Positions 50,137 to 64,000 of a DNA stretch of 64,000 nucleotides are shown one piece after another. This stretch comes from Psychroserpens sp. Hel_I_66. Its GTDB lineage: Bacteria > Bacteroidota > Bacteroidia > Flavobacteriales > Flavobacteriaceae. A model generated the notes under the pieces. The model had not been told where the DNA came from and ran no database searches. It saw only the letters and a list, made by a program, of their open reading frames with translations. How positions within the stretch are numbered: position 1 is the stretch's first letter; every line of letters begins with the position of its first letter. Position numbers and translations under genes: made by a program. Where the stretch lies: the NCBI RefSeq assembly GCF_000799465.1, contig NZ_JUGU01000001.1, positions 2,562,501 to 2,626,500 on the forward strand. The letters are read 5' to 3'.

Positions 50137-50216
50137 GCTCAAGTGGCGGAATTGGTAGACGCGCTGGATTCAAAATCCAGTTCTTCGGAGTGCGGGTTCG
50201 ATTCCCGCCTTGAGTA
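50137..50216 (+). tRNA. tRNA-Leu (anticodon CAA)
   Basis: A class II tRNA of about 80 nt without encoded CCA. Acceptor GCTCAAG pairs with CTTGAGT (one G-T pair). The anticodon stem CTGGA/TCCAG encloses loop TTCAAAA with anticodon CAA, reading UUG. The T arm is GCGGG-TTCGATT-CCCGC. The variable arm, GTTCTTCGGAGT, folds on a UUCG loop and is almost the octamer found throughout the core region. tRNA genes are common integration points; the accessory region begins just downstream. Confidence 0.95.
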
Positions 50217-50221
50217 CTTGT

Positions 50222-50266
50222 AAAATCCGTATGAATTTGATTTTCAAATTTTTACGGATTTTTTTT
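50222..50266 (+). terminator. Terminator of the tRNA-Leu gene
   Basis: AAATCCGTA and TACGGATTT form a hairpin with an AT-rich loop, followed by eight T's. Confidence 0.75.
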
Positions 50267-50285
50267 GTTTTATTTTGCCGAAAAT

Positions 50286-50487
50286 ATGCCGAAAATATCT
50301 GTCTTAAACTATTTTTTTTATGACAAAACGAAAAAAACTAAAAGTTAATTTAAATGAGTACAATGATTATTTAAACGAACTTAAAGTAGAAGTTTTTAGC
50401 CAAAAGGCTTTATTTCTATCTAGTATCCACAAATTAAAATGCCAGAACTTAAGTAAATTTGAACATCACCTAAAGACAATGATTTAA
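50286..50487 (+). pseudogene. Possible remnant of an integrase N-terminus
   Basis: Two short overlapping frames follow the tRNA. ATG 50286 gives MPKISVLNYFFYDKTKKTKS and stops. ATG 50320 gives 55 residues (MTKRKKLKVNLNEYNDYLNE onwards). Joined by a frameshift, they resemble the arm-type DNA-binding start of Bacteroidota tyrosine recombinases, which often sit beside tRNA genes. The resemblance is weak and made by eye; no catalytic domain is left. The remaining bases to 50735 are AT-rich with nothing I can support. Confidence 0.3.
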
Positions 50488-50735
50488 ATTGAAAAAAATA
50501 CTGCATCAGTATTATTGCTGCAGTATTTTAGTTAATCATTAATATACCTCCCTTTTCTGATCTTGTTATTTTTACAATATTCATCAATATCTGAACTTGA
50601 AATGATTTGATATACATCTCAAAACCAAATTTGAATAACAGAAGAAAATTTTCATTTCTAAATATCCTTCAAAATTTTATTTTAGTAATTAGCAAATAAA
50701 AGGGCTCATTGGCATTTAAAAAATCAAATTAAAAA

Positions 50736-51473
50736 TCATGAAATTTTTGGCAATTCAGGATATTCAACTCTGTCAACTATAGTTTCGACATCACTATTAA
50801 CTTTTGGACTAAATAAATCTTTGCTCACAGGATAGGTAATTAGATCGTCCTCTAGATACTCGAGATTTATCAACTCCATAATCCCATTTTCGTTTAAATC
50901 ATCTTTTAACCAATCTTGTTCAAAGTCTCTTTGCAGTATAACAGGTTGTCTATTTTTCTTATTATGAACCTTTGCAAATAAGGGTGATGCATCTTTTGTA
51001 AGAATAGTGAATGTAACCACGCTATCAATAATGGTATATAAGCCTGCTAAGGATAATAAATCATCATTCTTATGCTTGAAATGGAATGGGTATTTTTTGC
51101 TTTTATGTTCATGTGGCTCAAAAAAGCCTGAAACTGGAATTATACAACGTCTTGTGAAAACTGAGTTTTTATATATGAAATGATCGAAAAGCTTTTCAGA
51201 TCGTGCATTTAGTCCTCCCCCGTAACGTACCGCTTCTTTATAGTAATCTCTTATCTGATCCTGCTTTTTATTATTTGGCACGATTCCCCATAATGCTGGA
51301 GCTAAAGCTGTTGGTCCCTCTTGAGGGATGATCAACATGTCAGGATGAGCAAATCCGTTTAAATGATAACGAGGTATATCATAAGCATCTCTAGCGTCTT
51401 TCTTTGTAAGTTCTGCATCATATCTTTTTTCAAGAATTGTAACTTTTTTTGTTTGTGACGTATGGAAGCACAT
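50736..51473 (-). CDS. SOS response-associated peptidase (SRAP, YedK/HMCES family)
   Basis: A 245-residue SRAP protein. The catalytic cysteine is C2, exposed when Met1 is removed, and the other active-site residues are N89 in LNARSE, E119 in SGFFEPHEH and H170. Family members (YedK in E. coli, HMCES in humans) form thiazolidine crosslinks with abasic sites in single-stranded DNA to protect it. It lies between a tRNA and the cassette array, transcribed away from the array. Such genes are often found in mobile regions. The stretch 51474-51870 upstream of it is described under separate entries. Confidence 0.92.
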   Translation of the reverse strand: MCFHTSQTKKVTILEKRYDAELTKKDARDAYDIPRYHLNGFAHPDMLIIPQEGPTALAPALWGIVPNNKKQDQIRDYYKEAVRYGGGLNARSEKLFDHFIYKNSVFTRRCIIPVSGFFEPHEHKSKKYPFHFKHKNDDLLSLAGLYTIIDSVVTFTILTKDASPLFAKVHNKKNRQPVILQRDFEQDWLKDDLNENGIMELINLEYLEDDLITYPVSKDLFSPKVNSDVETIVDRVEYPELPKIS

Positions 51474-51585
51474 ATTTGTTTTTTATTAAAATTAATAAAA
51501 AAGGATCAATTATATCTCGGATCTAAATGAATCGATAACTTTTGCTATAAAAAAAACATACTGTACAAATCTTTTATATCCTTAA

Positions 51586-51708
51586 ATGGCCCGCAGCAAG
51601 CAACAACATCCAAAAATACATTTAAGAATACCGACAGATTATATGTGTTCAAAAGTGTTTGAAAATTTGGGAATCGAACTTAAAGCGTTGGGAAAACATT
51701 TAAAATAA
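51586..51708 (+). CDS. Small ORF of 40 residues, unknown
   Basis: ATG 51586 gives MARSKQQHPKIHLRIPTDYM followed by 20 more residues ending GKHLK. It is basic and has no recognised domain. It may be a remnant of a larger gene, like other fragments between the tRNA and the array. No strong ribosome-binding site seen. Confidence 0.3.
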   Translation: MARSKQQHPKIHLRIPTDYMCSKVFENLGIELKALGKHLK

Positions 51709-51759
51709 CATACTTAATTTTACGTTTTTGTATAGGCAATAAAGTTTATTTCTTAAATA

Positions 51760-51806
51760 TACGTAGAAGTACGTACGAAAGTGATTCAATTAATTTCATA
51801 GTTTTA
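51760..51806 (+). promoter_or_regulatory. Putative cassette promoter with palindromic operator
   Basis: TACGTAG-AA-GTACGTA at 51760-51775 differs by one base from the operators at 2070 and 2261 and shares the preceding AAATA. Exactly 23 bp later comes TAGTTTTA (51799-51806), a one-base variant of TAnnTTTG. The spacing is the same as in both other copies. It points into the first cassette, in the position of an integron Pc promoter. Control by the response regulator at 1407 is inferred. Confidence 0.6.
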
Positions 51807-51837
51807 CTATTATAAGTATTTTGTACTCATATAATAG

Positions 51838-51863
51838 ATATATAGTTACCAGTAACTATATAT
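51838..51863. repeat. Inverted repeat before the first cassette, attI-like candidate
   Basis: ATATATAGTTAC and GTAACTATATAT, spaced by CA, form a perfect inverted repeat ending 4 bp before the first cassette boundary at 51868. The region is where an attI-type primary site would be. It does not resemble the attC palindromes of the array. Function inferred from position alone. Confidence 0.4.
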
Positions 51864-51891
51864 ATTTGTTGTGGTTAATTTGAGAAACAGA

Positions 51892-52257
51892 ATGGGATTA
51901 GACATTAATTTGATTGAAATAATTGAAAAACCGAAATTAAAAATGTGTTGGCTTTCGGAAGATGAAAATCCTGAATTACAAAATTATTTTTCGGATTTAA
52001 TAACTACACGGAAAACGGAATCGGAAAATGGAACACTCGTTTCGGAAAAAGGATATTATTACGAAGAAATCTCATATCAGAGAAAAGGAGTAAAAGCAGT
52101 TTTCTTTAAAAAATTCGGAACAGACGATTTTGTTTTGACCAAGGACAAGCTATTTAAATTACAAAAGTGCCTAAAAAAAGAATATTTGGACACATTTGAA
52201 TCTGACTTTATGCAAAAATTTAGAGAAAAGAAAAACCTAATTATGATTAGCTATTAA
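51892..52257 (+). CDS. Cassette 1 protein, unknown
   Basis: A 121-residue soluble protein starting MGLDINLIEIIEKPKLK. A longer frame from GTG 51871 exists, but it would begin inside the cassette boundary sequence. Mixed alpha/beta, with no motif recognised. It is the first cassette (51868-52418), and its ATG is 24 bp after the boundary, so it must rely on an outside promoter such as the one at 51760. Confidence 0.6.
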   Translation: MGLDINLIEIIEKPKLKMCWLSEDENPELQNYFSDLITTRKTESENGTLVSEKGYYYEEISYQRKGVKAVFFKKFGTDDFVLTKDKLFKLQKCLKKEYLDTFESDFMQKFREKKNLIMISY

Positions 52258-52296
52258 CCACAGAACTGAACATAATAAGTGGAATAAAAACTAACC

Positions 52297-52423
52297 ACAA
52301 CACCGTATATAAGCTATGGCTCGGTCAGTCCACACTTGGAAAATCCTGCGGATTTTCCAAAGCCGGTTTTAATCAGGAAAAGTCTGTGCCGAGACACGCC
52401 ACAGCTCATATACCAAACGTTGT
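52297..52423 (+). repeat. attC-like site 1 (127 bp)
   Basis: Outer arms ACAACACCGTATATAAGC and GCTCATATACCAAACGTTGT, an inner arm pair CTCGGTCAG/CTGTGCCGAG, and a central perfect hairpin TTGGAAAATCC-TGC-GGATTTTCCAA. Very similar to site 2. Confidence 0.85.
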
Positions 52424-52444
52424 GCGCAAGCTGAAAAAAACATT

Positions 52445-52981
52445 ATGCTAGAAAGTTTACTATTTATATTTTTAATTTGTGTTGGCGGATTGTTTCTATT
52501 AATATCTCTGATTATTTTAACAATCGGATTAATCAAAAAATCCTCTAAACTGAAAAAAGTCGCTTTCGGAATTGGAGTTGTACCAATACTCTGTTTTGGA
52601 CTTATAATATTTTGGTATGCAATAGCAGTTCCGTCATTTAATAATAATCTAATGGAAGATTTTGCTGGAGTTTATATTCCCCATAAATCTGCAACGGAAT
52701 TTTTAAATGAAAACGGAGTTACGGAAAACGAACTGAAATTAACTTTATACTCTGACGGAACTTACAAATTTGACGGAATTGAAGGATTTGGACTAGAAAA
52801 AATAGGAACTTGGAAAACTGGCGGAATAGATGGACAATTTGAGTTTCACGATGAAAATGGTAGCTTATCCGAATGGGCAAGTCCTTCAGGTAGCGGAGAC
52901 GAATCTTCACTATCATTTGAATATCAATTGGACGAAGATGATTGGCAAAACAGGAAAAGCATATTATTTATAAAACAATAA
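52445..52981 (+). CDS. Cassette 2 membrane protein, unknown
   Basis: A 178-residue protein with two transmembrane helices at the N-terminus (about 4-28 and 40-64) and a soluble domain of about 110 residues outside the membrane (EDFAGVYIPHKSATEFL to FIKQ), with several beta-strands like the small lipocalin-like domains of Bacteroidota. ATG 26 bp after the boundary. No function assigned. Confidence 0.68.
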   Translation: MLESLLFIFLICVGGLFLLISLIILTIGLIKKSSKLKKVAFGIGVVPILCFGLIIFWYAIAVPSFNNNLMEDFAGVYIPHKSATEFLNENGVTENELKLTLYSDGTYKFDGIEGFGLEKIGTWKTGGIDGQFEFHDENGSLSEWASPSGSGDESSLSFEYQLDEDDWQNRKSILFIKQ

Positions 52982-53000
52982 AACGAAGAAAAGCCAGCGC

Positions 53001-53127
53001 ACAACACAGTATATAAGCTATGGCTTGGTCAGTCCTAACTTGGAAAATCCTACGGATTTTCCAAAGCCAGTCTTTATCTAGAGAGATTCGTGCCGAGATA
53101 AGCCACAGCTCATATACCAAACGTTGT
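53001..53127 (+). repeat. attC-like site 2 (127 bp)
   Basis: Same architecture and length as site 1, with central hairpin TTGGAAAATCC-TAC-GGATTTTCCAA. The outer ends belong to different cassettes: GCGCACAAC closes cassette 2 (which began GTTGTGCGC), while GTTGTAAGTA opens cassette 3. Confidence 0.85.
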
Positions 53128-53140
53128 AAGTAATTTGCCA

Positions 53141-53545
53141 ATGAAACTCAATAAAATTTATAAACTGACTTTTTTTTTGATAATCACATTGACTTCTTGC
53201 TCAAATAATAGTTTGAAAAATGAAATTGAAGGACAATGGGCAATTAAAGAAATAACATATAGCGGAAAAAGTTACAAAGACCAAATGTATACTAACGCTC
53301 TGATTTTTAGAGAGAATAATGAAGTTTCTATTCCCGAAACTTTTCACTTTAAAAAAGACAAAAATGCTACTTGGAAAGTTTTAGAAAATAAAAACAGTAT
53401 TACGATTAATACTTCGACAACTGTATTTGATGACACTTTTGACGTGGAATTTACAAATCGAACGGAAAATGACCCACTCGGAATTATTTTAAAGTCTGAC
53501 ACTATTTATATAAAAGCATATAAACTATTAGATTTTCATCATTAA
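53141..53545 (+). CDS. Cassette 3 lipoprotein, unknown
   Basis: A 134-residue lipoprotein with signal peptide MKLNKIYKLTFFLIITLTSC; the lipid-modified cysteine is residue 20. The mature part (EIEGQWAIKEITYSGKSY to KAYKLLDFHH) is beta-rich, lipocalin-like in pattern. ATG 18 bp after the boundary; a TTG six bases earlier is a less likely start. Location at the envelope is likely; function unknown. Confidence 0.68.
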   Translation: MKLNKIYKLTFFLIITLTSCSNNSLKNEIEGQWAIKEITYSGKSYKDQMYTNALIFRENNEVSIPETFHFKKDKNATWKVLENKNSITINTSTTVFDDTFDVEFTNRTENDPLGIILKSDTIYIKAYKLLDFHH

Positions 53546-53583
53546 CGAGGATTATTAAACTGATTGAAAATAAAAAACTACTT

Positions 53584-53712
53584 ACAACACCGTATAAAAA
53601 AAATTGCTAGTTTTAGCTAAACCAAAGTTAGTTGCTCGTTTGCTAGCTTCTGATTTTCCTTCGGAAAATCCTCGCACACAAACACGCAACTTTCCTTATA
53701 CATAAACGTTGT
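53584..53712 (+). repeat. attC-like site 3 (129 bp)
   Basis: Arms ACAACACCGTATAAAA and CTTATACATAAACGTTGT; central hairpin GATTTTCC-TTC-GGAAAATC, which contains the CTTCGGAA octamer. Cassette 3 closes with TACTTACAAC against its opening GTTGTAAGTA. Confidence 0.85.
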
Positions 53713-53855
53713 AAGCAATTCCACTCATTACGGAAAAAGATTAATCACTTTAAGCTAAAGTTTAAGGAGGATATTAGAGAAAAAAAGCTGAAAATAAAAA
53801 TCACTGACATTTGATTTTCAACATATTATAAAAACGTTAGTCAGAATTAAAGTGA

Positions 53856-54305
53856 ATGCAAATGAAAGATTGGGAATTAGATAGAATTTACATCTGGATT
53901 AGAGCTGCTAGCATTTATGGAAAAAATAACGGTGTAAAGTTTCTGATTGACCTGAATGACAAATCGCTCTTTAATCTTATTTTAAAAGATAACGAATGGA
54001 AATGTGTTCTGAATCGAGAGATTGGAGTTAGATACTCAAAAGAGCAGATTGAAGTACTCGAGAGTAAAATAGAATCTCTAAAAGATAATCGGAATAAAAT
54101 TCTAGAATTTCCTAAACTCATCAAAAGTGAAATAGAGTATATAGAAAAAACTAAATTAGAACTCGAACGAAAGAAAAAGTATAAAGTCAAATTTGATTGG
54201 ATGAAGTATGATAAAATTATTTATGGAAATCCAGCAGAATTTGGAATTGAATGGTTAAAAGAAATTGGAATTGAAATTGAGGAACTTTCTAGAATCGGAT
54301 TCTAA
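53856..54305 (+). CDS. Cassette 4 protein, unknown
   Basis: A 149-residue charged, helical protein with a probable coiled coil in the centre (SKEQIEVLESKIESLKDNRN, about 66-110). There is a 148-bp leader between the cassette boundary (53708) and the gene, longer than in the other cassettes, so this cassette could have its own promoter; no TAnnTTTG box is evident in it. Alternative ATG six bases downstream. No family recognised. Confidence 0.55.
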   Translation: MQMKDWELDRIYIWIRAASIYGKNNGVKFLIDLNDKSLFNLILKDNEWKCVLNREIGVRYSKEQIEVLESKIESLKDNRNKILEFPKLIKSEIEYIEKTKLELERKKKYKVKFDWMKYDKIIYGNPAEFGIEWLKEIGIEIEELSRIGF

Positions 54306-54327
54306 AATCAAAAAATAAAAACTGCTT

Positions 54328-54455
54328 ACAACACCGTATAAAATTAATTGCTGGTTTTAGCCAATTTACGAAAGTCCTCGCGGACTTTCTATCTGTGATT
54401 TATTTGCTAAATTTAGTGCTTAAAACACGCAACTAATCTTATACATCAACGTTAC
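54328..54455 (+). repeat. attC-like site 4 (128 bp)
   Basis: Arms ACAACACCGTATAAAATT and CTTATACATCAACGTTAC; central hairpin GAAAGTCC-TCGC-GGACTTTC. Cassette 4 closes with TGCTTACAAC against its opening GTTGTAAGCA. The right end opens cassette 5 with the divergent core GTTACCACAC. Confidence 0.83.
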
Positions 54456-54462
54456 CACACAT

Positions 54463-54711
54463 TTGAGAAAAACGACAGTAATATCATCAAAATATACTAC
54501 TTCAAAAAAAATAAGTGCTTATTTAATTATTTTTGGATACGTAATATTTATTATTCCTTTTTTTCAAATATTTGGTGGAATTTTAATGTTACTTGGTTGG
54601 ATAATTAATATAAGAACGGATAGAAGTAATAAGAAAAAACTACTTTGGTCTATACCGCTTATTGCACATTTGATTTTAGTTTCAATAATCATCATACTAA
54701 ATCACATTTGA
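54463..54711 (+). CDS. Cassette 5 small membrane protein, unknown
   Basis: An 82-residue protein starting at TTG 54463, only 12 bp after the cassette boundary, with two transmembrane helices (about 16-45 and 60-82). It is the first of two genes in this cassette. Its stop codon overlaps the next gene's TTG by 4 bp (TTGA), so the second gene depends on translation of this one. No family recognised. Confidence 0.5.
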   Translation: MRKTTVISSKYTTSKKISAYLIIFGYVIFIIPFFQIFGGILMLLGWIINIRTDRSNKKKLLWSIPLIAHLILVSIIIILNHI

Positions 54712-55292
54712 AAAAGACATTCAAATTCATATCAAAAGTAATTTTCGGAATACTAATTTGGTTAATATTAGTCGATATACAATGGACTTTTTTCGACAGT
54801 CACTCAATCGAAAATTTGATTTTTATTGTGTTCGGAATTTTTCTTTTGTTGCTAATTATAAGCGGAATCTATTGGGTTTTTAAAAAGAAGAGAATATTGA
54901 AATTTGCTGGTTTCGGAACTTTGTACTTTTTAGCTTTTTCAATAACAATGATTTTAACAAATGTAGTTTACGGGAAAATTGCAGAAAGTCAATTTATAGT
55001 ATTACTAAAAGACATTGAGAAATATAAAATTGAGAAAGGTCAAATTCCAAAAGTATTATCGGATTTACCAACCGAACATTATAACGTTTATGGAATAGTT
55101 CCTCACGAATTTATTTACGAAGGATATAAACCGTTTATCTGGAATGGAATTGGATTTGACGAAAGCGAAATTGACAGCGAAACGGAGAAAATAGTCGGAT
55201 ATAAAACGCCGATGGGTTATACGAAATATCGAATCGCAGATGATGAAAATATTGATGATGTAATTGAAAACGTGATAAAAAACGTGTGGTAA
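54708..55292 (+). CDS. Cassette 5 second membrane protein, unknown
   Basis: A 194-residue protein starting at TTG 54708 (MKKTFKFISKVIFGILIWLI), with three hydrophobic helices in its first 95 residues and a soluble C-terminal part of about 95 residues (KDIEKYKIEKGQIPKVLSDL). The segment around KYKIEKGQIPKVLSDL resembles the pseudopilin-like region found in small flavobacterial membrane proteins, but the resemblance is weak. The translational overlap with the preceding ORF makes a functional pair likely. Confidence 0.58.
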   Translation: MKKTFKFISKVIFGILIWLILVDIQWTFFDSHSIENLIFIVFGIFLLLLIISGIYWVFKKKRILKFAGFGTLYFLAFSITMILTNVVYGKIAESQFIVLLKDIEKYKIEKGQIPKVLSDLPTEHYNVYGIVPHEFIYEGYKPFIWNGIGFDESEIDSETEKIVGYKTPMGYTKYRIADDENIDDVIENVIKNVW

Positions 55293-55482
55293 CAATGTAT
55301 ATAAAAAATAGCGCAAGATGTTACAAACACAAAGGTTCGGGCACTTTTTAGAGGTCGCCAAATTTTTAAATTTGGCTATATGAGAAAAGAAAGATAAATA
55401 GAAAAACTTAAAAATTCGGCTTGAGTTTAACCGAATGGATAGTGTGCAAATCAGCGCTACTTTTCATATACTCGACCGTTAG
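55289..55482 (+). repeat. attC-like site 5 (194 bp, long class)
   Basis: Outer arms GTAACAATGTATATAAAAAA and TTTTCATATACTCGACCGTT, a central hairpin GCCAAATTT-TT-AAATTTGGC and inner repeats such as AACCGAA. The 5' end pairs with GTTACCACAC, the opening of cassette 5. Confidence 0.83.
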
Positions 55483-55525
55483 CAAACATTAAAAACACAA
55501 ATAGTAAAGTAAAAAAATCAAATAA

Positions 55526-56587
55526 ATGAAAACATTTTTCTCTATTATATTCATTTTTTCGGCAATCATATCTGACCTCTATGCACAAACTACCGATGTC
55601 GTAACGGGCTTAAATGGTCCTGTTAGAATAGAACTTAAGGATACAGAACTATTTATTTCAGAGTTTGATGGAGAAATAATTTCTAAAATAAATATAAACT
55701 CAACTTTACCAACAACAGCAGAAGTTGTAACTGTTTTAAATAATCCTAATGGATCATCTAGCCCAGATGGATTAGCTTTCAATGGCAATACTCTTTACAT
55801 TGCAGAAACTAATACTTCCAAAATTTCTTCATTAGATTTAAGTTCAGGTTCACCAACACCAACAGACGTTGTAACGGGTTTAAATAATCCACGTGGTATA
55901 GTACTTTATGGAAGCAACCTATATATAACTAACGGAAATAAAATTTCAAAAATAGATATAAACTCAACTACACCAACAGCAACGGATGTAGTTACTGATT
56001 TAAATGGTGCGTTTGATATAATTATAAATGGAACTGAACTTTATATAGCAATAAGAAACGATGGAAAAGTTTCTAAAATAGATCTTGCAGAAACTAACCC
56101 AATTTTAATAGATGTTATTACTGGTTTAGATTTACCTCTTGGTATAGCTATCAATGGAACAGACCTATATATCTCTGAAACAATTGCAAATAAAATTTGT
56201 ATGGTAGATTTAAGTGCTGTCACGCCAATAGCAGTAGATGTTTTGACTGGATTAAATTCGCCTGTAGGAATAGAAATTATTGGAACAGAAATGTATATAG
56301 TAGAAACAGGTGCTAATAAAATCTCTAAAATATCGATAAATTCTTTATCTACAGAAGATTTTTTAACAAAAGATGACATTAAACTTTATCCAAATCCAAC
56401 ATCTCATTTTATCCAAATATCTGGATTGAATAAAACAGAAAATTATAAAATATATAACTCTTTAGGGCAAGAAGTGCTTGTTGGTGCAATTAACAGCAAT
56501 TATAGAATTGAGACTTTGCAATTAATTAATGGGTTATACTTCTTAGAATTTGACAATGGAAGAACTTTTAAATTTATAAAAGAATAA
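55526..56587 (+). CDS. Cassette 6: secreted beta-propeller with T9SS sorting domain
   Basis: A 353-residue exported protein with a signal peptide (MKTFFSIIFIFSAIISDLYA, cleavage near residue 20). It then has six or seven repeats of about 43 residues (such as NGTELYIAIRNDGKVSKIDL and NGTDLYISETIANKICMVDL) and a T9SS sorting domain (LYPNPTSHFIQISGL to FIKE). It has the same design and length as the chromosomal protein at 22355 but different codons and base composition. A T9SS substrate inside a cassette means the cargo assumes a host with T9SS. Confidence 0.83.
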   Translation: MKTFFSIIFIFSAIISDLYAQTTDVVTGLNGPVRIELKDTELFISEFDGEIISKININSTLPTTAEVVTVLNNPNGSSSPDGLAFNGNTLYIAETNTSKISSLDLSSGSPTPTDVVTGLNNPRGIVLYGSNLYITNGNKISKIDINSTTPTATDVVTDLNGAFDIIINGTELYIAIRNDGKVSKIDLAETNPILIDVITGLDLPLGIAINGTDLYISETIANKICMVDLSAVTPIAVDVLTGLNSPVGIEIIGTEMYIVETGANKISKISINSLSTEDFLTKDDIKLYPNPTSHFIQISGLNKTENYKIYNSLGQEVLVGAINSNYRIETLQLINGLYFLEFDNGRTFKFIKE

Positions 56588-56603
56588 ACAACCATAACGT
56601 TTG

Positions 56604-56794
56604 CTAACAACGTATATAGCTCATAGCTGGGCAGTTGCTTAATCGAAGTTAAGGCATATTTGGAAAGTCGCCAAATTTTTAAATTTGACCATTTCCAATA
56701 AAAAGATAAATAATAAAATTTAAAAATCTGGCTTGTGCTTAACCGAATAATTATCGCTAATTTGCACGCTACGAGCCATATACAAGACCGTTAG
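56604..56794 (+). repeat. attC-like site 6 (191 bp, long class)
   Basis: Arms CTAACAACGTATATAGCTC and GAGCCATATACAAGACCGTT; central hairpin CAAATTT-TT-AAATTTG. Cassette 6 closes with CGTTTGCTAAC against opening GTTAGCAAAC. Closely similar to site 11. Confidence 0.83.
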
Positions 56795-56814
56795 CTTTCA
56801 TTAAATAAAACTCA

Positions 56815-57141
56815 ATGGCATTACCAAAAAACAAAAATATTAGAAAAATTATGGTTAATGATATTGAATATTATTGGACAATCAGTTATGACGAAGATTA
56901 TGGATTGATTACTTGTAACGTAGGATTAGTTGACAAACCTAATTATAGATTTAGTTTCTCAAGAGGTGGAGATAAAACTCACATCCAATATATCCATAAT
57001 TCAATAGAAGAAAAAGATACTCTAAAAGCTATAACTCCTAATTTAGTCAGAAAAGCAATAGAATATGCAAATGAAAATCTGGATTGGAAAAACACAAAAA
57101 ATAGTAGTTTATCTTCTAACTCAGATGGATTTAATTGTTAA
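56815..57141 (+). CDS. Cassette 7 first protein, unknown
   Basis: A 108-residue soluble protein: a beta-rich first half (DIEYYWTISYDEDYGLITCNV) then a helix (TPNLVRKAIEYANENLDW). ATG 25 bp after the boundary. It is followed after 13 bp by the second gene of the cassette, so the two probably function together. No family recognised with confidence. Confidence 0.55.
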   Translation: MALPKNKNIRKIMVNDIEYYWTISYDEDYGLITCNVGLVDKPNYRFSFSRGGDKTHIQYIHNSIEEKDTLKAITPNLVRKAIEYANENLDWKNTKNSSLSSNSDGFNC

Positions 57142-57154
57142 TATCTAGAACATT

Positions 57155-57622
57155 ATGGCAAGTGGATTTATAATATTAAAAGACGGAAGATGTTTCGCAA
57201 GAAGATGGACAGGATATGATGAAATTATTCGAATAGCCATAATGGAACTGAAACTAATTCAAAATGGAGAGGAATTAGCAGACTGGCTAAAATTGCAAAT
57301 TCCAGACGCTCAAGATGACGAAAGTGCTGATGCAGGATGGGGATTTCACAACGCAAGAATTGACGATTGGATAAATAGAAAATTAGATTTAAGAAGTCTG
57401 ACAAAGGAAAATCAAAAATTATTATGGGCAGCAATACAAAACGGTAAAATTAATTTGATTGAGAAAGGGCAAGATTATTCTCCACTATCACTTGATTACT
57501 TCAACATATTTTATGAAATGTGTGAACTAGCCGAGAAAGGAGAACCGCCAATGGAATTAACTCATTGGAATAAGCTCGCGGATCCTTGCACTGAACAAAA
57601 CGGACCTGGGTGGGAAAAATAA
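57155..57622 (+). CDS. Cassette 7 second protein, unknown
   Basis: A 155-residue soluble acidic protein. It begins MASGFIILKDGRCFARRWTG, has a helical middle (DEIIRIAIMELKLIQNGEEL) and ends PPMELTHWNKLADPCTEQNG. The tryptophan-rich, acidic pattern suggests an immunity- or Smi1-like small protein, but I cannot confirm that. It shares its cassette with the ORF just upstream. Confidence 0.52.
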   Translation: MASGFIILKDGRCFARRWTGYDEIIRIAIMELKLIQNGEELADWLKLQIPDAQDDESADAGWGFHNARIDDWINRKLDLRSLTKENQKLLWAAIQNGKINLIEKGQDYSPLSLDYFNIFYEMCELAEKGEPPMELTHWNKLADPCTEQNGPGWEK

Positions 57623-57632
57623 AAACGAAAAG

Positions 57633-57824
57633 CTAACAATGGCTATAATTAATACGGGTTTTGGTGCTTAACCCAAAGTTTAGTGCTTTTAAACTAAGTC
57701 CGCCAAATCTTTTGATTTGGCTTTAAGTACAAAAAAGATAAAACAAAATAAAAAGTTTTGGCTAAGTGCTTAATCGAAAGTTCACTACTTTTAATTCCCG
57801 TACTAATCATAGCCGAAACGTTGT
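57633..57824 (+). repeat. attC-like site 7 (192 bp, long class)
   Basis: Arms CTAACAATGGCTATAATTA and TAATCATAGCCGAAACGTT; central hairpin CCGCCAAATC-TTTT-GATTTGGC. Cassette 7 closes with AAAGCTAAC against opening GTTAGCTTT. The arms vary from the other sites in a complementary way (GGCTAT and ATAGCC). Confidence 0.82.
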
Positions 57825-57843
57825 GAGCAAGCTGAACGAACCT

Positions 57844-58362
57844 ATGAAAATACTACTATTGATATTTGGAATTGTACTTTTTGGATGTTCTTGGTCTTCA
57901 AAAACAGAAAAGGAATCTTCAATATCTGAAAATTATTCATTCCAAAATATTGAGAAAGAAAACCCTAAAAAAATAGAACAAACAATCGACAGTATTTTGA
58001 GGTTTGACCAAATAGAAATTGGAAAAAGAACTCTATATACTGGTGGTGGAAAAACTGACAATGGAAAGACTAAAACTAACGGAATTTATATCAAAAAGGT
58101 TGCTGATAATAAGATTGAATATTCTTACTCTCAATTAATAAATTGGAAAAAAGAATTTGATTTAAATGGAATAGCCGAATTAATAAGTATTTCAGATTCT
58201 ATTGTAACAATTAAGGAACTGAAAGAACCAACTTATAAGTTTATTGATTCTGAAAATGACATCATTATTTACGTCACCAAAAACGAAAGAATTAATATCA
58301 CAAAAGCCAAAGTATTTAATAAAGCAGGAAAACAGCTTTCGGAATTAATGTATAATAAATAG
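57844..58362 (+). CDS. Cassette 8 lipoprotein, unknown
   Basis: A 172-residue lipoprotein with signal peptide MKILLLIFGIVLFGC, lipidated at C15. The remainder is mixed alpha/beta and charged, with no recognised domain. The ATG at 57844 lies 24 bp after the boundary; a longer frame from 57766 would start inside the attC-like site and is rejected. Confidence 0.65.
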   Translation: MKILLLIFGIVLFGCSWSSKTEKESSISENYSFQNIEKENPKKIEQTIDSILRFDQIEIGKRTLYTGGGKTDNGKTKTNGIYIKKVADNKIEYSYSQLINWKKEFDLNGIAELISISDSIVTIKELKEPTYKFIDSENDIIIYVTKNERINITKAKVFNKAGKQLSELMYNK

Positions 58363-58381
58363 AAAAGTGAAAAGCCAGCTC

Positions 58382-58509
58382 ACAACAAAGTATAAAAATA
58401 ATTGCTATTTTAGGCTTAACCAAAGGTCGTTGCACTTTTGTTACGTCTGATTTTCCTTCGGAAAATCCTCGCACACAAAACCGCAACTATTCTTATACCA
58501 AAACGTTGT
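58382..58509 (+). repeat. attC-like site 8 (128 bp)
   Basis: Arms ACAACAAAGTATAAAAATA and TTCTTATACCAAAACGTTGT; central hairpin GATTTTCC-TTC-GGAAAATC as in site 3. Cassette 8 closes with AGCTCACAAC against opening GTTGTGAGCA (nine of ten). Confidence 0.84.
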
Positions 58510-58531
58510 ATACAATAATCAAAAAATCAAA

Positions 58532-60550
58532 ATGGCAAAAAATGATAAAATACTAATTGATGGAATAATTGATGAAAGAATTGAACTGAACTTACCTTCA
58601 AATAAAAGAGATGAAGCGTTCGAGTATTTTTCATTTGAACAGATTTTAAAAGATTATGATTTATCTTCTGACGAAATTAAAAACGGTAGTGTTGATGGTA
58701 GAAATGATGGAGGAATTGATGGCTTTTTCATTCTTGTTAATGGACATTGTTTACAAGATCCTCTTTCATTCAATTGGCCAAAATCTGGTTCTATTTTAGA
58801 ATTATGGATAATAACTTGTAAACATCATGATACTTTTCGTCAAGCTCCTCTGGACAATTTAGTTGCAAGTATGACGGAATTACTTGATTTTTCAATAGAA
58901 AATAAAGACCTTAAAGTTGAGTATATTGATTTAGTATTAAAACTAAGAGAAAATTTAAAATTTGCCTATCGAAAGGTTTCACCTAGACTAAGTGAATTTT
59001 CAATTAATTTTTGTTACGCTTCTAGAGGCAACTCATCCGATTTAGGTGATTCAATTGTTTCAAGGTCTGAACAACTAATTCAAGTTGCCCAAGATTCATT
59101 TGGTAATTGTGTTTCAAAATTTCACTTTTTTGGTGCCACAGAACTAATCGATTTGAATAGAAAAATTCCAAACTTTACTTTAGAACTTCCTTTTAAAGAA
59201 GCTCTTTCAAGTGGTGAAAGATACGTGCTTCTTGTAAACCTAAATGACTATTTCAATTTTGTTTCTGATAATAATAAATTAAGACGTTATTTATTCGATT
59301 CCAATGTTAGAGATTTCATGGGCTTAAATAGAGTAAATGAAGATATTAAAGAAACTCTTAAAAATTTGGACTCTCCTGATTTTTGGTGGCTAAACAATGG
59401 AGTTACAATACTAGCGACTGGTGCTAGTGTAATTGGAAAATCAATTCAGATTCAAGATATCCAAATCGTAAATGGTTTGCAAACTACAGAATCTATTTTT
59501 AGGCATTTTCAAGCCAGTGGAACAGACCCAAAAAATAGATCAGTAATGGTTAAAATAATTGTTTCGAACGAAGATGAAGTTAGAGATACAATTATTCGTG
59601 CTACAAACAATCAAACTAATGTTGAACTAGCTTCCTTACATGCAACTGATAAAATTCAAAGAGATATTGAAGACGTGCTAAAGCTTAACGAAATTTACTA
59701 TGAAAGAAGAACAAATTATTATAAAAATCAAGGGATTCCAGTCAATCAAATTGTTACTCCATTATATCTAGCATCTGGTTTCATAAATTTCATTTTAAAA
59801 TCTCCTCATCAAGCAACTATGCTAAAATCTAGATTTATGAGATCAGAATCTTCATATAACGAAGTCTTTTCTCTCGAAACTGATTTAAAAGTTTGGCCAA
59901 AAATTGCTGAAGTCTTAAAAAAAACAGATACTTTTTTAGAAACAGTAAGACCAGGTCGAGGAAGTTCTCAAAGATTCTTAAAAACTAAAAGGCAATTTTT
60001 AAGTTTCCTTGTATTATCAAAGTCATTTGGAACTTTTAATTTTAGTGTAGGAGATTTGATTAGTTTAGATATATTAACTTTAGATAACACGATTTTTGAG
60101 GAAGCATGGGAATTGCTTGAATCCGTAAATTCTTCACCAAAAACATCAGAGATAAAAAGAAAAACCTATTTGATAAGAATCTGTGAAGCAGCCAAAAGAA
60201 AATGGTCGTTAAAAGGTTATGAGAGAATGAAAAAAGGTATGCCTCCAAAAGTTATAAAACAAATTGAAAAAAATCATTTCCCACCTAAGAAGAATCGAAT
60301 AACGTTGGAATTTGCAATGAAAGTGAATGATCTTCTTCCACCCCAACCTTGGAAACCGAATGTTGAATTAGAAATAATTAAAACCCTCAAATGCCATAGG
60401 AGAGAATACTTTGATGCTGTTGCAATTCTTATAGAAGAGGGAATAAGAAATTATCAAAAGGATGGAGTGGTTTATGACCAAGAAGGTAATGTTCTATCAT
60501 TTGACAAGGAAAGAGTGGATTCAGAAACTTTAGAATTATTTAGAATATAA
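58532..60550 (+). CDS. Cassette 9: AIPR family abortive infection protein
   Basis: A 672-residue protein of the AIPR family (abortive phage resistance). The hallmark regions are present: FWWLNNGVTIL (about residues 285-295) and DIQIVNGLQTTESIF (about 309-323). A nuclease-like region precedes it and a helical C-terminal part with WSLKGYERMKKGMPPK follows. AIPR proteins are linked to phage defence systems and often stand alone or beside restriction genes; their biochemistry is incompletely known. It is the largest cassette here (2181 bp). ATG 27 bp after the boundary. Confidence 0.85.
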   Translation: MAKNDKILIDGIIDERIELNLPSNKRDEAFEYFSFEQILKDYDLSSDEIKNGSVDGRNDGGIDGFFILVNGHCLQDPLSFNWPKSGSILELWIITCKHHDTFRQAPLDNLVASMTELLDFSIENKDLKVEYIDLVLKLRENLKFAYRKVSPRLSEFSINFCYASRGNSSDLGDSIVSRSEQLIQVAQDSFGNCVSKFHFFGATELIDLNRKIPNFTLELPFKEALSSGERYVLLVNLNDYFNFVSDNNKLRRYLFDSNVRDFMGLNRVNEDIKETLKNLDSPDFWWLNNGVTILATGASVIGKSIQIQDIQIVNGLQTTESIFRHFQASGTDPKNRSVMVKIIVSNEDEVRDTIIRATNNQTNVELASLHATDKIQRDIEDVLKLNEIYYERRTNYYKNQGIPVNQIVTPLYLASGFINFILKSPHQATMLKSRFMRSESSYNEVFSLETDLKVWPKIAEVLKKTDTFLETVRPGRGSSQRFLKTKRQFLSFLVLSKSFGTFNFSVGDLISLDILTLDNTIFEEAWELLESVNSSPKTSEIKRKTYLIRICEAAKRKWSLKGYERMKKGMPPKVIKQIEKNHFPPKKNRITLEFAMKVNDLLPPQPWKPNVELEIIKTLKCHRREYFDAVAILIEEGIRNYQKDGVVYDQEGNVLSFDKERVDSETLELFRI

Positions 60551-60563
60551 AAAATTACTGTAT

Positions 60564-60690
60564 ACAACAATGTATATAAAAAATAGGCGAAATAGTAATA
60601 AATTCAAGCCTTTTGGCTCGTATCAATCTTTGTGCTTAACTGAAAGTTTCGTGCTTCGTAACCGCCTACTTTTCATATACTAACCGTTGT
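60564..60690 (+). repeat. attC-like site 9 (127 bp)
   Basis: Arms ACAACAATGTATATAAAAAA and TTTTCATATACTAACCGTTGT; central hairpin AGCC-TTTT-GGCT. Cassette 9 closes with TGTATACAAC against opening GTTGTATACA. Confidence 0.84.
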
Positions 60691-60728
60691 AATACATTAA
60701 AAAACACGATTCGAGGAGAAAGTAAATT

Positions 60729-61244
60729 ATGAAAAAAAAACTGCTCAAAATAATAGATTCTGGCTATTTCATCTTCAAAAAAATCATTCCTCTCAAAACA
60801 TATAGATATGCAGTTTGTGGCGGAAGTAATTTAGTTTTAGATACTACTTTATATTTTATCTGTTTTCATTTCATTTTTGCTAAAGAAAACTTAGATTTAT
60901 TTATTCTCGTTTTGAGTCCACACATTGCTTCTTTGTTTTTTGTATTTCCTATAACTTTTTTTATCGGATTCTTATTAAACAGATTTATAGTATTCCCTGA
61001 ATCAAAATTATCTATGAAGACGCAGTTTTTAAGATATTTAACTGTTGGAATAATAGCTTTATTGATTAGTTACCTTTCAATGAAATTACTTGTCGATGTA
61101 TTCCTTTTTTATCCAACACCTTCTCGACTTTTGACAATTGTCATAACTGTCTTATTTAGTTATATAATGCAAAACAAATTTAGCTTTAAGATTGAATCAC
61201 AAACTAATAAAAGAATTGAAATCAAAAACATTATCGAATTATAG
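60729..61244 (+). CDS. Cassette 10: GtrA-like membrane protein
   Basis: A 171-residue protein with four transmembrane helices of the GtrA fold (about 30-52, 60-88, 104-124, 132-152; conserved YAVCGGSNLVLDTTLYF at the start of TM1 and NKFSFK at the end of TM4). GtrA-family proteins take part in moving lipid-linked sugars, for example during O-antigen glucosylation or teichoic and arabinogalactan synthesis. As cassette cargo it could modify surface sugars, a known phage escape route; that is inference. Confidence 0.78.
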   Translation: MKKKLLKIIDSGYFIFKKIIPLKTYRYAVCGGSNLVLDTTLYFICFHFIFAKENLDLFILVLSPHIASLFFVFPITFFIGFLLNRFIVFPESKLSMKTQFLRYLTVGIIALLISYLSMKLLVDVFLFYPTPSRLLTIVITVLFSYIMQNKFSFKIESQTNKRIEIKNIIEL

Positions 61245-61255
61245 GAAAACGTATT

Positions 61256-61448
61256 ACGACAAGGTATAAAAAACATAGGGCATTTGTGCTAAACCGAAAG
61301 GTCTGTGCATTTTAACAAAGTCCGCTAAATATAAAATTTGGCGTTTATAGTAGAAAAGATAAAAGCAAAATATTTATATTTAGCTAAGTAATAAACCGAA
61401 ACGAAAGTGCTTATCAACTGCCCTACGATTTCTTATACTGAACGTTGT
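61256..61448 (+). repeat. attC-like site 10 (193 bp, long class)
   Basis: Arms ACGACAAGGTATAAAAAACA and TTTCTTATACTGAACGTTGT; central hairpin CCGCTAAAT-ATAAA-ATTTGGCG (imperfect). Cassette 10 closes with TATTACGAC against opening GTTGTAATA, with one G-T wobble. Confidence 0.8.
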
Positions 61449-61466
61449 AAATAATGCGAAAAAAAA

Positions 61467-62078
61467 ATGACGCTCGAAGAAAAAATTAAGTTTTTAAAAG
61501 AGAATATTGAGCCAATTGATGACCAGATTTATGGAAATGGCTATCGAGCTTCTGCATATTTGACTGACGGAACTTATATTCCTTGTGTGCGTTTTAGAAA
61601 TCCAAAACCGCTAACGGAACTTGCAATCAGAAGATTTGACGAAGAGCGAAAAGGAAAAGGAATTTTTAGCAACAGTTCGGGATTTGGATATGAAGATATA
61701 GTTGAGAATTTTGTGGCGAAAAAAAACTCAATAAATGAATACGATATTGACCGAATAGAAAAAAGTCCGTTTGCTTTTCCAAAAGGTTTTCTTGGAAAAA
61801 TTCGTGGAGAAACCACAATGTCGTGGACTGGATTTTGTGTGAAAATGAATGACGGAAAAATATTCGGATTTGGGTCAAGTTTTTTATTTGATTTTTTTCA
61901 AATGCCCAAAAATTATGTTGCAGATGATATTACGGAAATTATAAATCATAGCTATATTTCCAAAGAAGGAACAATTAAAGAGCATAAAATCGGATTTTCA
62001 AGCCAACGAGAAGATTATGATTTAAGCGTAATTCACAGAGAAAGACCGTTTTTTGATTGTTATATTAAAGGATTATGA
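61467..62078 (+). CDS. Cassette 11 protein, unknown
   Basis: A 203-residue soluble protein (MTLEEKIKFLKENIEPIDDQ; a glycine-rich loop IFSNSSGFGYEDI in the middle; IRGETTMSWTGFCVKMNDGK before the last third). Mixed alpha/beta. No family recognised. ATG 23 bp after the boundary. Confidence 0.55.
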   Translation: MTLEEKIKFLKENIEPIDDQIYGNGYRASAYLTDGTYIPCVRFRNPKPLTELAIRRFDEERKGKGIFSNSSGFGYEDIVENFVAKKNSINEYDIDRIEKSPFAFPKGFLGKIRGETTMSWTGFCVKMNDGKIFGFGSSFLFDFFQMPKNYVADDITEIINHSYISKEGTIKEHKIGFSSQREDYDLSVIHRERPFFDCYIKGL

Positions 62079-62097
62079 TTGTGCGAAAGCACTATTT

Positions 62098-62290
62098 ACA
62101 ACAACGTATATAGCTCATAGCTAATTAATTGCTCAATCGAAGTTAAGGCATATTTGGAAAGTCGCCAAATTTTTAAATTTGACGATTTCCAATAAAAAAG
62201 ATAAATAGTAAAATTTAAAAATCTGGCTTGTAGCTCAACCGAAAATAATTTTCTAATTTGCACGCTACGAGCCATATACAGAGACATTGC
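62098..62290 (+). repeat. attC-like site 11 (193 bp, long class, degenerate right end)
   Basis: Similar to site 6: left arm ACAACAACGTATATAGCTC and right arm GAGCCATATACAGAGACATT. The right core reads ATTGCC where GTTGCC would be expected; the remaining bases still match the closing GGCAAC of cassette 12. The G of the core, contributed by the upstream side, appears mutated. Confidence 0.8.
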
Positions 62291-62313
62291 CAATAATTTG
62301 AAAAAATAACTTA

Positions 62314-63528
62314 ATGCAATCATTTTCAACTACATCTTGGTTAAATTTTCCCCGACTTTATACGCAGTCAATAATTAAGGAAATAAATTCAAAAGGAAAG
62401 GAGCACATTCTCAAAGTAGATGAAAATGAATATGTAAACTATCTAATCGAAAAATACCGACTTGAACCCTTAAAAATTCTTCATGAAACTGAAGAGATTT
62501 CTAATCCAGTTAAATCACAAGAAATGCAAAGAGATAGGTTTGGACGAGAATTTATGTCTAACTCTTGGACTTTTAAAATAACGTATCGATTCGAAGGTAG
62601 CGCGGTTTTATTTAGTGTTATACCCAATCCAAACGTTCACTCAAATTATGATATACAAATTGACAAACAAAATAACCTTGTTTCATTTTATATAAAAATT
62701 TTCAGACAAGATGCTTCAGAGTTCCAAAAAGTAAAGTCTTCATGCTATACAAATGCTTTTGATAATATTAAATACGTGAATGATAATGTGACTCAATCAA
62801 ATGTCACCTTTGAAGATAATATTAGAACATTGTTCTCTCGTGAAAAAAATAAATATAAAGAGGAAAATGATTTTTTTGCTGCTATAAATGTAAAAGTTAA
62901 TGAAAATACTCAATCTATTTTTTCCGCACCAACAATAAAGAAGAAAATAATTAAGCAACCTTCAGTTTCTAAAAATAAAGAATTCAATTCTGTTCCTTCG
63001 ATGAGTCAAGAAATGTATGATGATGTATTAAAAGTCATATACGACTCTGGGAAAAGCATGGAAAAGAAACCAGCTTTATATATCGGAAAAGATGAAGAAG
63101 GTTTAAGAGACCAATTTTTGTTTGTTTTAGAAACCAGATATGAGGGAACAACGGCCACTGGAGAAACATTTAATCGTGGCGGACGGGCTGATATCATATT
63201 AAAATATGCTGATGATGGCACAAATTTGTTTATAGCGGAATGTAAATTTTGGTACGGAAGTTCGGAGTTTTTAAAAGCGATATCGCAACTATTTGATAGA
63301 TATTTAACTTGGAGAGATTCGAAAGTAGCTATTATGATTTTTGTTCAAAATAAGGATTTTTCAAACGTACTAAAAACAATAAAATCTGACATTTCAAATC
63401 ATGATTATCATTTGAAATATATTGGAGAAAAAGGAGAATCTTCTTTTTCCTATGAATTTCATCTGCCACAGGATAATGATAAAAAAGTTGAAGTAGAAAT
63501 AATGATTTTTCATTTCGACAAAAAATAA
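62314..63528 (+). CDS. Cassette 12: PD-(D/E)XK-like nuclease protein
   Basis: A 404-residue protein. The C-terminal half (about 235-400) carries a PD-(D/E)XK pattern: E264 and D268 in DEEGLRDQFLFVLETRY, D293 in GGRADIIL, and E309-x-K311 in IAECKFWYG, followed by a helix with DRYLTWRDSK. This is the restriction-endonuclease-like fold. The N-terminal 220 residues are mixed alpha/beta and not recognised. A role in restricting foreign DNA is plausible next to the AIPR gene cassette; target unknown. ATG 28 bp after the boundary. Confidence 0.72.
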   Translation: MQSFSTTSWLNFPRLYTQSIIKEINSKGKEHILKVDENEYVNYLIEKYRLEPLKILHETEEISNPVKSQEMQRDRFGREFMSNSWTFKITYRFEGSAVLFSVIPNPNVHSNYDIQIDKQNNLVSFYIKIFRQDASEFQKVKSSCYTNAFDNIKYVNDNVTQSNVTFEDNIRTLFSREKNKYKEENDFFAAINVKVNENTQSIFSAPTIKKKIIKQPSVSKNKEFNSVPSMSQEMYDDVLKVIYDSGKSMEKKPALYIGKDEEGLRDQFLFVLETRYEGTTATGETFNRGGRADIILKYADDGTNLFIAECKFWYGSSEFLKAISQLFDRYLTWRDSKVAIMIFVQNKDFSNVLKTIKSDISNHDYHLKYIGEKGESSFSYEFHLPQDNDKKVEVEIMIFHFDKK

Positions 63529-63537
63529 AAACTATTG

Positions 63538-63664
63538 GCAACACCGTGTATAATTAATGGCTAGTTTTAGCTTACTTACGAAAACCCTCGCGGATTTTCT
63601 ATTCGGTTTATATTTGCCAAATTAGGTGCTTAAACACGCCACTAATCATACACATCAACGTTGT
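63538..63664 (+). repeat. attC-like site 12 (127 bp)
   Basis: Arms GCAACACCGTGTATAATT and CATACACATCAACGTTGT; central hairpin GAAAACCC-TCGC-GGATTTTC (one mismatch). Compensating change: CCGTGTA on the left faces TACAC on the right where other sites have GTATA and TATAC. Confidence 0.83.
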
Positions 63665-63693
63665 AAGCAATTAACCGAAAAACCAACAAACAG

Positions 63694-64000
63694 ATGGATT
63701 CACCAAAACATTTAAGCCATAAACCAATAATATCTGTAAATGACTATGATAAAATTGACGCACAATACAGAAAAAACACTGATGTAAGAGCTCTATCGAT
63801 TGGAAATGCACAATATGACGAAGATGAAATTTCTTTAAAAGTTTGGAGACATACAGGAGAAAAGTGGACTAGACAAAGTGAGGAATTACCATTACATAGA
63901 AGTTTAGATTTGAATATTCTCTTATTAGGAGCATTAATGACCGATATTACTTCTGGTTACCCAAAAACTAATTTACGAGAAGAAATAGACAGAATAGATG
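63694..64000 (+). CDS. Cassette 13 protein, incomplete (DUF6530-like)
   Basis: ATG 63694 starts MDSPKHLSHKPIISVNDYDK and runs off the right edge (about 102 codons in view). The segment VWRHTGEKWTRQSEELPLHR is one I associate with small proteins named DUF6530; the assignment is from memory of the family and should be treated as tentative. Soluble; function unknown. ATG 34 bp after the boundary. The end of this cassette and any following cassettes lie outside the window. Confidence 0.6.
   Translation, partial: MDSPKHLSHKPIISVNDYDKIDAQYRKNTDVRALSIGNAQYDEDEISLKVWRHTGEKWTRQSEELPLHRSLDLNILLLGALMTDITSGYPKTNLREEIDRID

Follow-up and report, generated by a model that had tools for sequence, protein, structure and literature searches.

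The window analysed here is a 64,000-nucleotide stretch of the chromosome of Psychroserpens sp. Hel_I_66 (Bacteroidota, Flavobacteriaceae; contig NZ_JUGU01000001.1, positions 2,562,501 to 2,626,500 of the forward strand), the last part of which (51868-63659) holds 12 units with 12 hairpin sites between them, each 120-187 bp long from AAC to GTT, in an arrangement resembling the gene-cassette arrays of integrons. The original prediction, made from the letters of this stretch, had described 12 palindromes dividing 12 complete units, and this was borne out, as a covariance model of the sites (R1, see below) matches 12 out of 12. The genes read in the units are all on the + strand, as had also been claimed, while the statement that they start mostly 12-48 bp after GTT holds in part only, some starts lying far beyond 48 bp (148 bp in cassette 4). 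In all 12 units the seven bases after the start triplet are the reverse complement of the seven before the unit's own terminal AAC (7/7 in nine units and 6/7 in cassettes 2, 7 and 8), which agrees with the predicted complementarity between the start of each unit and its own end (hereafter own-end match).

The array starts at an attI-like site (51828-51870, with a palindrome at 51838-51863 and GTT at 51868-51870), which is on the + strand, as are all cassettes and attC-like sites that follow. Cassettes 1 to 4 (51868-52418, 52419-53122, 53123-53707 and 53708-54450) carry open reading frames (ORFs) of 128 amino acids (aa; 51871-52257), 178 aa, 136 aa and 149 aa (53856-54305), each without a Pfam match, and have their sites at 52292-52421, 52996-53125, 53579-53710 and 54323-54453. 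Cassette 5 (54451-55477; two ORFs, 54463-54711 and 54645-55292), cassette 6 (55478-56789; a 353-aa protein with a secretion-system C-terminal sorting domain, PF18962) and cassette 7 (56790-57819; ORFs of 108 and 155 aa) have sites of a long type (55284-55480, 56599-56792 and 57628-57822), and are followed by cassette 8 (57820-58504; one ORF ending at 58362, no Pfam match) with its site at 58377-58507. An AbiU-type anti-phage gene (58532-60550; PADLOC AbiU 510 bits, PF10592 AIPR) occupies cassette 9 (58505-60685; site 60559-60688), and cassette 10 (60686-61443) encodes a GtrA-like membrane protein (PF04138). The triplets deviate at two places: site 10 (61251-61446, long type) has GAC in place of AAC, and site 11 (62093-62288, long type), which belongs to cassette 11 (61444-62285; 203-aa ORF, no Pfam match), is followed by ATT in place of GTT at the start of cassette 12. 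The latter (62286-63659) carries a candidate anti-phage protein, PDC-S54 (62314-63528; PADLOC 327 bits), so that anti-phage genes make up two of the six window cassette proteins scanned with PADLOC. The last intact site of the array, site 12 (63533-63662), is the best R1 match of the genome (149.7 bits).

Beyond site 12 a 13th unit starts (63660-64000, + strand) with a DUF6530 gene (PF20140). It had been described as a partial unit; no exact own end was found for it within 9 kb, and the unit therefore appears to be a degraded tail, not a cassette truncated where the window ends. Rfam gave six matches up to E 10 in 51500-64000, every one far under its gathering score. With 12 sites and no integrase nearby, the array corresponds to what has been termed a cluster of attC sites lacking an integron integrase (CALIN; at least two attC sites), and no recombinase remnant was found in the 3.8 kb ahead of the window attI. 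The nearest tyrosine recombinase (L007, in L018; 425 aa, 17 kb past the window end; PF00589 52.8 bits) was considered and rejected, being of another kind with no R1 sites beside it. The array belongs to a 33-kb island between prs and hupE (window 49994-64000 plus L018:1-11250), which also carries this 425-aa recombinase and a type IIG restriction-modification gene (PADLOC 1162 bits); the names prs, hupE, SRAP, rplY, pth and S41 peptidase come from reading the protein sequences and not from database results.

For 42 consecutive cassettes from four arrays of this genome, the own-end match is 6.62 out of 7, whereas shuffling the partners 5000 times gives 2.81 and never more than 3.71, and the R box in which it occurs is hypervariable, with 36 distinct 7-mers among the 42 cassettes. 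In a set of 186 detected cassettes from own and genus-mate arrays, which includes units where the simple detector missed a site, the match is 5.77 versus 2.58 after shuffling (maximum 2.97 in 2000 shuffles), and the adjacent downstream R' box matches just 2.73 of 7. With both halves of its own R box lying within each cassette, the pairing becomes whole solely when the cassette closes on itself.

The sites share the layout R''(...AAC) - 3 nt - L''(GTRTATAA and like) - variable inner stem - L'(CATAYAC and like) - 5-6 nt - GTT R', with unpaired spacers of 3 nt on the left and 5-6 nt on the right. Like the attC sites that end integron cassettes, they are imperfect inverted repeats whose R and L boxes pair and whose spacers stay unpaired. 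R1 was built from the 35 short-type sites among 46 collected (11 long-type sites were left out). The L arms of the sites covary, with 96.9% of cells paired and 8 of 14 pairs changed on both sides (79.2% and 5.5 in shuffles), and they are equal in length in 32 of the 35 sites, i.e. without the extrahelical bases of integrons. A.C mismatches are fixed at columns 23/131 and 28/125 in 35 out of 35 sites, and a further A.C stands at position 8 of the R arm in 112 of 131 sites. Since these top-strand mismatches become G.T pairs on the bottom strand, it is the bottom strand that can fold into the fuller hairpin. The alignment and bottom-strand folding that had been proposed as a check thus came out in favour of the bottom strand, which was more stable (DNA parameters, mean difference 4.4 kcal/mol) in 129 of 131 reconstituted sites, namely those of the 186 cassettes with an own-end match of at least 6, compared to 84 of 200 random windows. 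In the integrated form it was also lower, in all three sites that were folded both ways.

R1 sites are found elsewhere in this 3.84-Mb chromosome as well, at least 112 of them at E up to 0.01 and in several clusters (among the best 150 of 2670 candidates scored). Three Xer-like recombinases head clusters that share their strand, and the stretches fetched show no site ahead of them; the two XerC/XerD-type genes of this genome (L024, L025) have no R1 site nearby. At G000:C1:1766000-1811000 (own genome; L021, L082, L083) two arrays face each other, with sites on the + strand at 1.766-1.797 Mb and on the - strand at 1.800-1.811 Mb. Small site groups with no listed Xer-like recombinase nearby lie at 1266000-1280000 (L086), 1888000-1892000 and 2139000-2184000, and are perhaps more integrase-less arrays.

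R1 matches at E up to 1e-4 were found in every one of the 21 genus-mates as well as in the own genome, with between 3 and at least 86 per genome. An NF040815 search of these 22 genomes found XerC, XerD and, in 21 of them, a third kind of recombinase, mostly as open frames of ~380-390 aa, the miss being a genome that is 88% complete (G012). Of the 25 third-kind loci listed in genus-mates 20 were fetched, together with 11 XerC/XerD loci; sites at E up to 0.01 are present in 17 of the former and in none of the latter. The three third-kind loci without sites are contigs ending 152-372 bp past the stop codon, which suggests that short-read assemblies break at the arrays and that array content is therefore under-counted. 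The array lies downstream of the recombinase, in the same orientation, in 15 of the 17 loci, and the other two, L066 and L072 (type D), have it upstream and divergent; the type-D recombinases (L066, L072 and L132, 355-366 aa) are divergent from their arrays as in classical integrons. In the complete genome of Psychroserpens ponticola (G002), ~280 sites on one strand form one array of ~263 kb (read from 1.83 to 2.11 Mb), with R1 matches exclusively on + (202/202 in L197-L206 and 79/79 in L059 and L078-L081) and no site before its single third-kind recombinase. An independent detector found 233 sites on + and 1 on - in this array (3 in the reversed sequence), and in the 231 cassettes that were detected the longest ORF is on + in 169, on - in 7 and shorter than 50 aa in 55.

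These counts bear on the possibility that host XerC/XerD, rather than the linked recombinase, move the cassettes, as in Xer-exploiting elements. When CTX phage integrates, XerCD do use a folded single strand that has no extrahelical bases, and in this it resembles the sites described here (PMC4792948), but the lack of sites at the XerC/XerD loci, together with a third kind of recombinase that heads the arrays with an attI behind it, makes this a very improbable explanation.

Directly behind the stop codon of the recombinase (in types A and B, the two common ones) lies a conserved attI-like site, then GTT and then unrelated sequence, so that, as in integrons, an attI stands beside the recombinase gene and cassettes are joined to it at GTT. 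Type-B attI reads TATATT...TATAAC-N2-GTT in 12 out of 12 loci, mostly GTTATATTTG-N4-ATATAAC-TA-GTT or near it, and type A reads GGATATA-N10-TATATCC-AATT-GTT plus variants, while in type D (two loci, L066 and L072) a palindromic sequence precedes GTT upstream of the divergent recombinase gene. The 43 bp of the window attI (51828-51870) recur without a difference directly after two recombinase genes of the same chromosome, those of L022 and L023. The own end of the first cassette was located at 18 of 24 attI junctions, that of the window included. At -22 from GTT, 7 of the 12 type-B attI have a box, TATATTTG, fitting TAnnTTTG, a motif that 4.9% of random 75-nt windows hold and that is the flavobacterial sigma-A -7 consensus (PMC9723704). 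Both type-D loci have the box TATCTTTG at -32 or -33, and type-A attI has no such box at the -22 place. A putative promoter inside the attI, comparable to the common promoter Pc in front of integron arrays, would likely transcribe the cassettes behind type-B attI. At L065:10380-10870 the first site of a type-A array, missed by R1, differs in its arms (GGTCACGGTCT/AGACCGTGACC); judging from this site, more than one attC family seems to be used by the system. The first cassette after the type-C attI at L021:1650-6218 is more than 5 kb long and holds three genes, a defence-like operon as a single cassette: one gene is for a cytosine methyltransferase (570 bits with PADLOC DrmMII), one is ATPase-like and weakly matches a restriction enzyme (42 bits), and PADLOC gave no match for the third.

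That the units are exchangeable cassettes, as originally proposed, finds support in identical copies, bounded by GTT, at distant places. The array at 1.767-1.790 Mb of this chromosome, headed by an open type-C recombinase, repeats three cassettes (815, 616 and 723 bp) with 100% identity, as A-B-C at the head and as C...B...A further in. In P. ponticola an 838-bp cassette is repeated at 100% identity 20 kb away, nine copies of a 598-bp cassette (92-99% identity) occur in the stretches fetched at first, and the whole array contains eight sets of identical cassettes. Between genomes, a P. ponticola cassette recurs in G008 at 94%, with a left flank that is different from GTT outwards and a right end that is not in register, and a cassette of the own genome recurs in P. 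ponticola at 87%. In seven duplicate pairs, of which both ends were checked, the identity runs from GTT to GTT, plus 1-5 bases on the left (where the sites share consensus) and 0-5 on the right. This places the crossover at that triplet; in integrons it lies between G and TT, and here it is localised to the triplet, not to the base. At the window locus, the distance between prs and hupE (33 kb here) is ~310-460 bp in 5 of 16 genus-mate loci (G001, G004, G007, G011 and G017), which are thus empty, and 4-8 kb in three; in the other eight the fetched stretch does not include both genes. The anchor for this comparison was the S41-peptidase neighbourhood, the SRAP-type gene beside the array having been dropped as it is present in only 4 of 20 genomes. 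Units in the same order, with no gain, loss or permutation, had been named beforehand as speaking against exchange, and this is not what was found in the genus-mates.

The same data can be held against a simpler explanation, in which the sites are palindromic intergenic repeats (terminators or repetitive extragenic palindrome-like elements) in accessory islands that are shuffled by homologous recombination alone. The sites are alike enough for homologous recombination, and hairpins can end transcription. Shuffled repeats, however, fail to predict the own-end complementarity, the ~280 sites on one strand or the attI, and the breaks in identity fall at GTT instead of anywhere in the ~120-bp site, which leaves this explanation with hardly any credibility.

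With regard to the recombinase, the three array-linked proteins of this genome were compared to family models. NF040815 (XerA-type, cut-off 220) gives 223 and 226 bits for L022 and L023 and 201 bits for L021, and genus-mates fall on both sides of the cut-off. The XerC/XerD models (TIGR02224 and TIGR02225) give 161-195 bits against cut-offs of 330-335, i.e. the proteins are neither XerC nor XerD by these models, and the IntI model (TIGR02249, cut-off 265) gives 197-200 bits in two stretches. In comparison, the ten IntI proteins tested (of 11 candidates by span) all score 372-506 bits with TIGR02249, in one stretch. The span from patch II to patch III is 69-70 aa in 23 out of 23 array-linked recombinases, 69-77 aa in XerC/D, and 111-112 aa in 10 out of 10 IntI, which means that the array-linked recombinases are without the ~42-residue stretch that houses I2 in IntI. 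The placing of I2 in this stretch rests on literature, according to which I2 is about 20 residues (PMC4792948) and the additional domain of IntI sits around patch III (PMC9668308). In a 76-row tree (from which L103, L123 and L130 were dropped, their open frames having run on), IntI, XerC/D and the array-linked recombinases with named relatives form separate clades, with approximate likelihood-ratio (SH-aLRT) supports of 99, 99 and 96. A quick tree puts the array-linked clade with archaeal XerA (support 79), while the tree that puts it with IntI is 7.8 log units better (approximately unbiased test, p 0.70).

It could still be argued that this is an ordinary integron, of which a true IntI elsewhere in the genome works the sites, the window array being a CALIN. 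In the geometry of the attC-like sites, the GTT triplet, the bottom-strand bias and an attI next to a tyrosine recombinase, the arrays agree with integrons; the NF040815 model passed by some of the recombinases is itself named 'site-specific tyrosine recombinase/integron integrase', as are some database entries of their relatives; and there are reports of intI-bearing integrons in Bacteroidota or the Bacteroidetes/Chlorobi group (PMC8618304, PMC2426708, PMC9024848). However, no IntI over the TIGR02249 cut-off was found in the own genome or in any of 299 family genomes (a search in which no control genome gave a match), and both the scores and the patch II-III span set the array-linked recombinases apart from IntI, so that an ordinary integron is very improbable.

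Recombinases of types A-C have an extra N-terminal domain of about 75 residues. An AlphaFold model of the recombinase consists of an Xer/IntI core plus this domain (predicted local distance difference test, pLDDT, 81.6; predicted template-modelling score 0.52), and the domain folded alone (pLDDT 91.3) has a weak likeness to the XPB damage-recognition and SMARCAL1 HARP domains. Domains of the HARP/XPB type bind single/double-strand junctions.

Following these results, the window very probably contains a gene-cassette array of a Bacteroidota integron-like system, with an Xer-type recombinase without I2 predicted, on comparative grounds, to move the cassettes. In the mechanism that we propose, this recombinase would excise cassettes as circles at the hairpin attC-like sites and insert them at the attI-like site beside its own gene, with the folded bottom strand as the presumed substrate, as in integrons, and it is a guess that the N-terminal, weakly HARP/XPB-like domain may stand in for I2 when the folded strand is handled. 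The original prediction of an integron-type system in Bacteroidota with its own attC family therefore holds with respect to the apparent mechanism, for which a linked recombinase and an attI were found, though not for family membership, the recombinase being no IntI. As IntI with its I2 is lacking, this is no integron in the strict sense, and the most fitting name is that of an integron-like cassette system with an Xer-type recombinase.

Several observations weigh against this interpretation. All support is comparative, with excision, circles and insertion predicted from sequence. In IntI, I2 accommodates the extrahelical bases, and together they prevent a second strand exchange (PMC4792948); a recombinase without I2 would have to manage otherwise. 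The likeness of the N-terminal domain to HARP/XPB is weak, and the domain is shorter in type D. In the full P. ponticola array the own end is matched at 6 or 7 of 7 in only 137 of 231 detected cassettes, partly because the detector misses sites, and the own end of the first cassette was missed at 6 of the 24 attI junctions (contig ends in L058, L067 and L073, no match in L062 and L077, and a junction not located by the script in L061). In one locus (L074) a single weak site lies on the side of the recombinase opposite to its array. Finally, the window array carries an attI but no recombinase, and the two recombinase copies behind which the same attI is found (L022:14100-16300 and L023:9300-11500, - strand, 98% identical over 1.55 kb and each heading its own cassette array) have one in-frame stop each, at different places in the N-terminal extension, with the catalytic part open in both. 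It follows that the window array would be either frozen or dependent on a recombinase acting from elsewhere.

The latter points could also mean that the system is real but dead in this strain, the arrays being immobile relics, which would be compatible with the integron-like interpretation and to which the 13th unit without an exact end adds. On the other hand, the identical duplicates at 1.767-1.790 Mb behind the open type-C recombinase suggest recent movement there, and 24 of 25 third-kind recombinase cores of genus-mates are without a stop; a dead system is thus rather unlikely, though to be reckoned with.

The integron-like system appears to extend well beyond the genus. With ten candidates scored per genome, R1 sites at E up to 1e-6 were found in 255 of 299 family genomes (208 of 236 genera), and in the phylum, at E up to 1e-8, in 47 of 247 genomes (33 of 122 genera), 32 of these 47 being outside the family. 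Named relatives of the recombinase were examined at 80 loci; R1 sites (E up to 0.01, some of the matches weak) turned up at 13 of these, all in Bacteroidota, for instance Lutibacter, Winogradskyella ursingii, Algibacter onchidii, Seonamhaeicola aphaedonensis, Algoriphagus ornithinivorans and Arundinibacter roseus. When the L-box consensus was ignored, chains of at least three self-complementary units were found in 6 of the 80 loci, one of which is an IntI locus (L154), while reversed sequences reach at most 1 and XerC/D loci at most 2; this test is weak, as it gives 2 for the large P. ponticola array head (L059) and misses the R1-found arrays in L106 and L122. At L125:2400-4800, in a metagenome-assembled genome of Flammeovirgaceae (UBA6059), three self-complementary units with another site family lie upstream of a distant recombinase relative.

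A search of the integron literature by title and the start of the abstract (with bioRxiv and most subscription papers outside its coverage) gave no description of such a system, and if the predicted capture and shuffling holds, this would be a second integron-type gene-collecting system that has apparently been overlooked. In the IntegronFinder 2.0 paper, only In0 elements are given as known earlier from Bacteroidetes, and one complete integron is named, that of Salinibacter ruber (PMC9024848). If our interpretation is true, a large bacterial family would have a gene-capture reservoir that is hardly listed in integron surveys. A published account of how integrons evolved links I2 and the extrahelical bases to the use of attC as a folded single strand (PMC4792948); a working cassette system with neither would split these ideas and make the origin of integrons testable. 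It is more tentatively, and yet with somewhat better than even expectation, that we regard the system as a second integron lineage of Bacteroidota, present in most Flavobacteriaceae and with arrays larger than the Vibrio cholerae superintegron, which would do without I2 and extrahelical bases, use a HARP/XPB-like domain and G.T-wobble asymmetry instead, and represent either a surviving pre-I2 state or an independent invention.

Compared to known systems, the arrays are most readily set beside the sedentary chromosomal integrons of the Vibrio superintegron type, with which they share a recombinase gene, an attI and a long one-strand array of small cassettes, as well as the R box that is completed in the circle, the GTT triplet and the favoured bottom-strand hairpin. 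Vibrio superintegrons carry anti-phage cargo, as do the arrays described here. Unlike in the Vibrio type, the recombinase is without I2, is no IntI and is mostly upstream of the array on the same strand, the R pairing comprises ~10 variable bp, there is an A.C/G.T asymmetry with no extrahelical base, and the attI types are the system's own; the L box (GTRTATAA...) differs from the canonical integron L box. The window array is like a CALIN in having no integrase gene, and unlike it in having an attI-like site at its start and sites of another family. Archaeal XerA acts on dif, and from XerA-type recombinases (NF040815) the present ones differ by the extra N-terminal domain (types A-C) and by their linkage to cassette arrays. 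In size, the array of ~263 kb exceeds the ~120 kb reported for V. cholerae (PMC4032106). The integration of CTX phage via XerCD, finally, is similar in that the recombinases have no I2 and the folded stem has no extrahelical bases (PMC4792948), whereas the system described here has a dedicated, linked recombinase and hundreds of cassettes.

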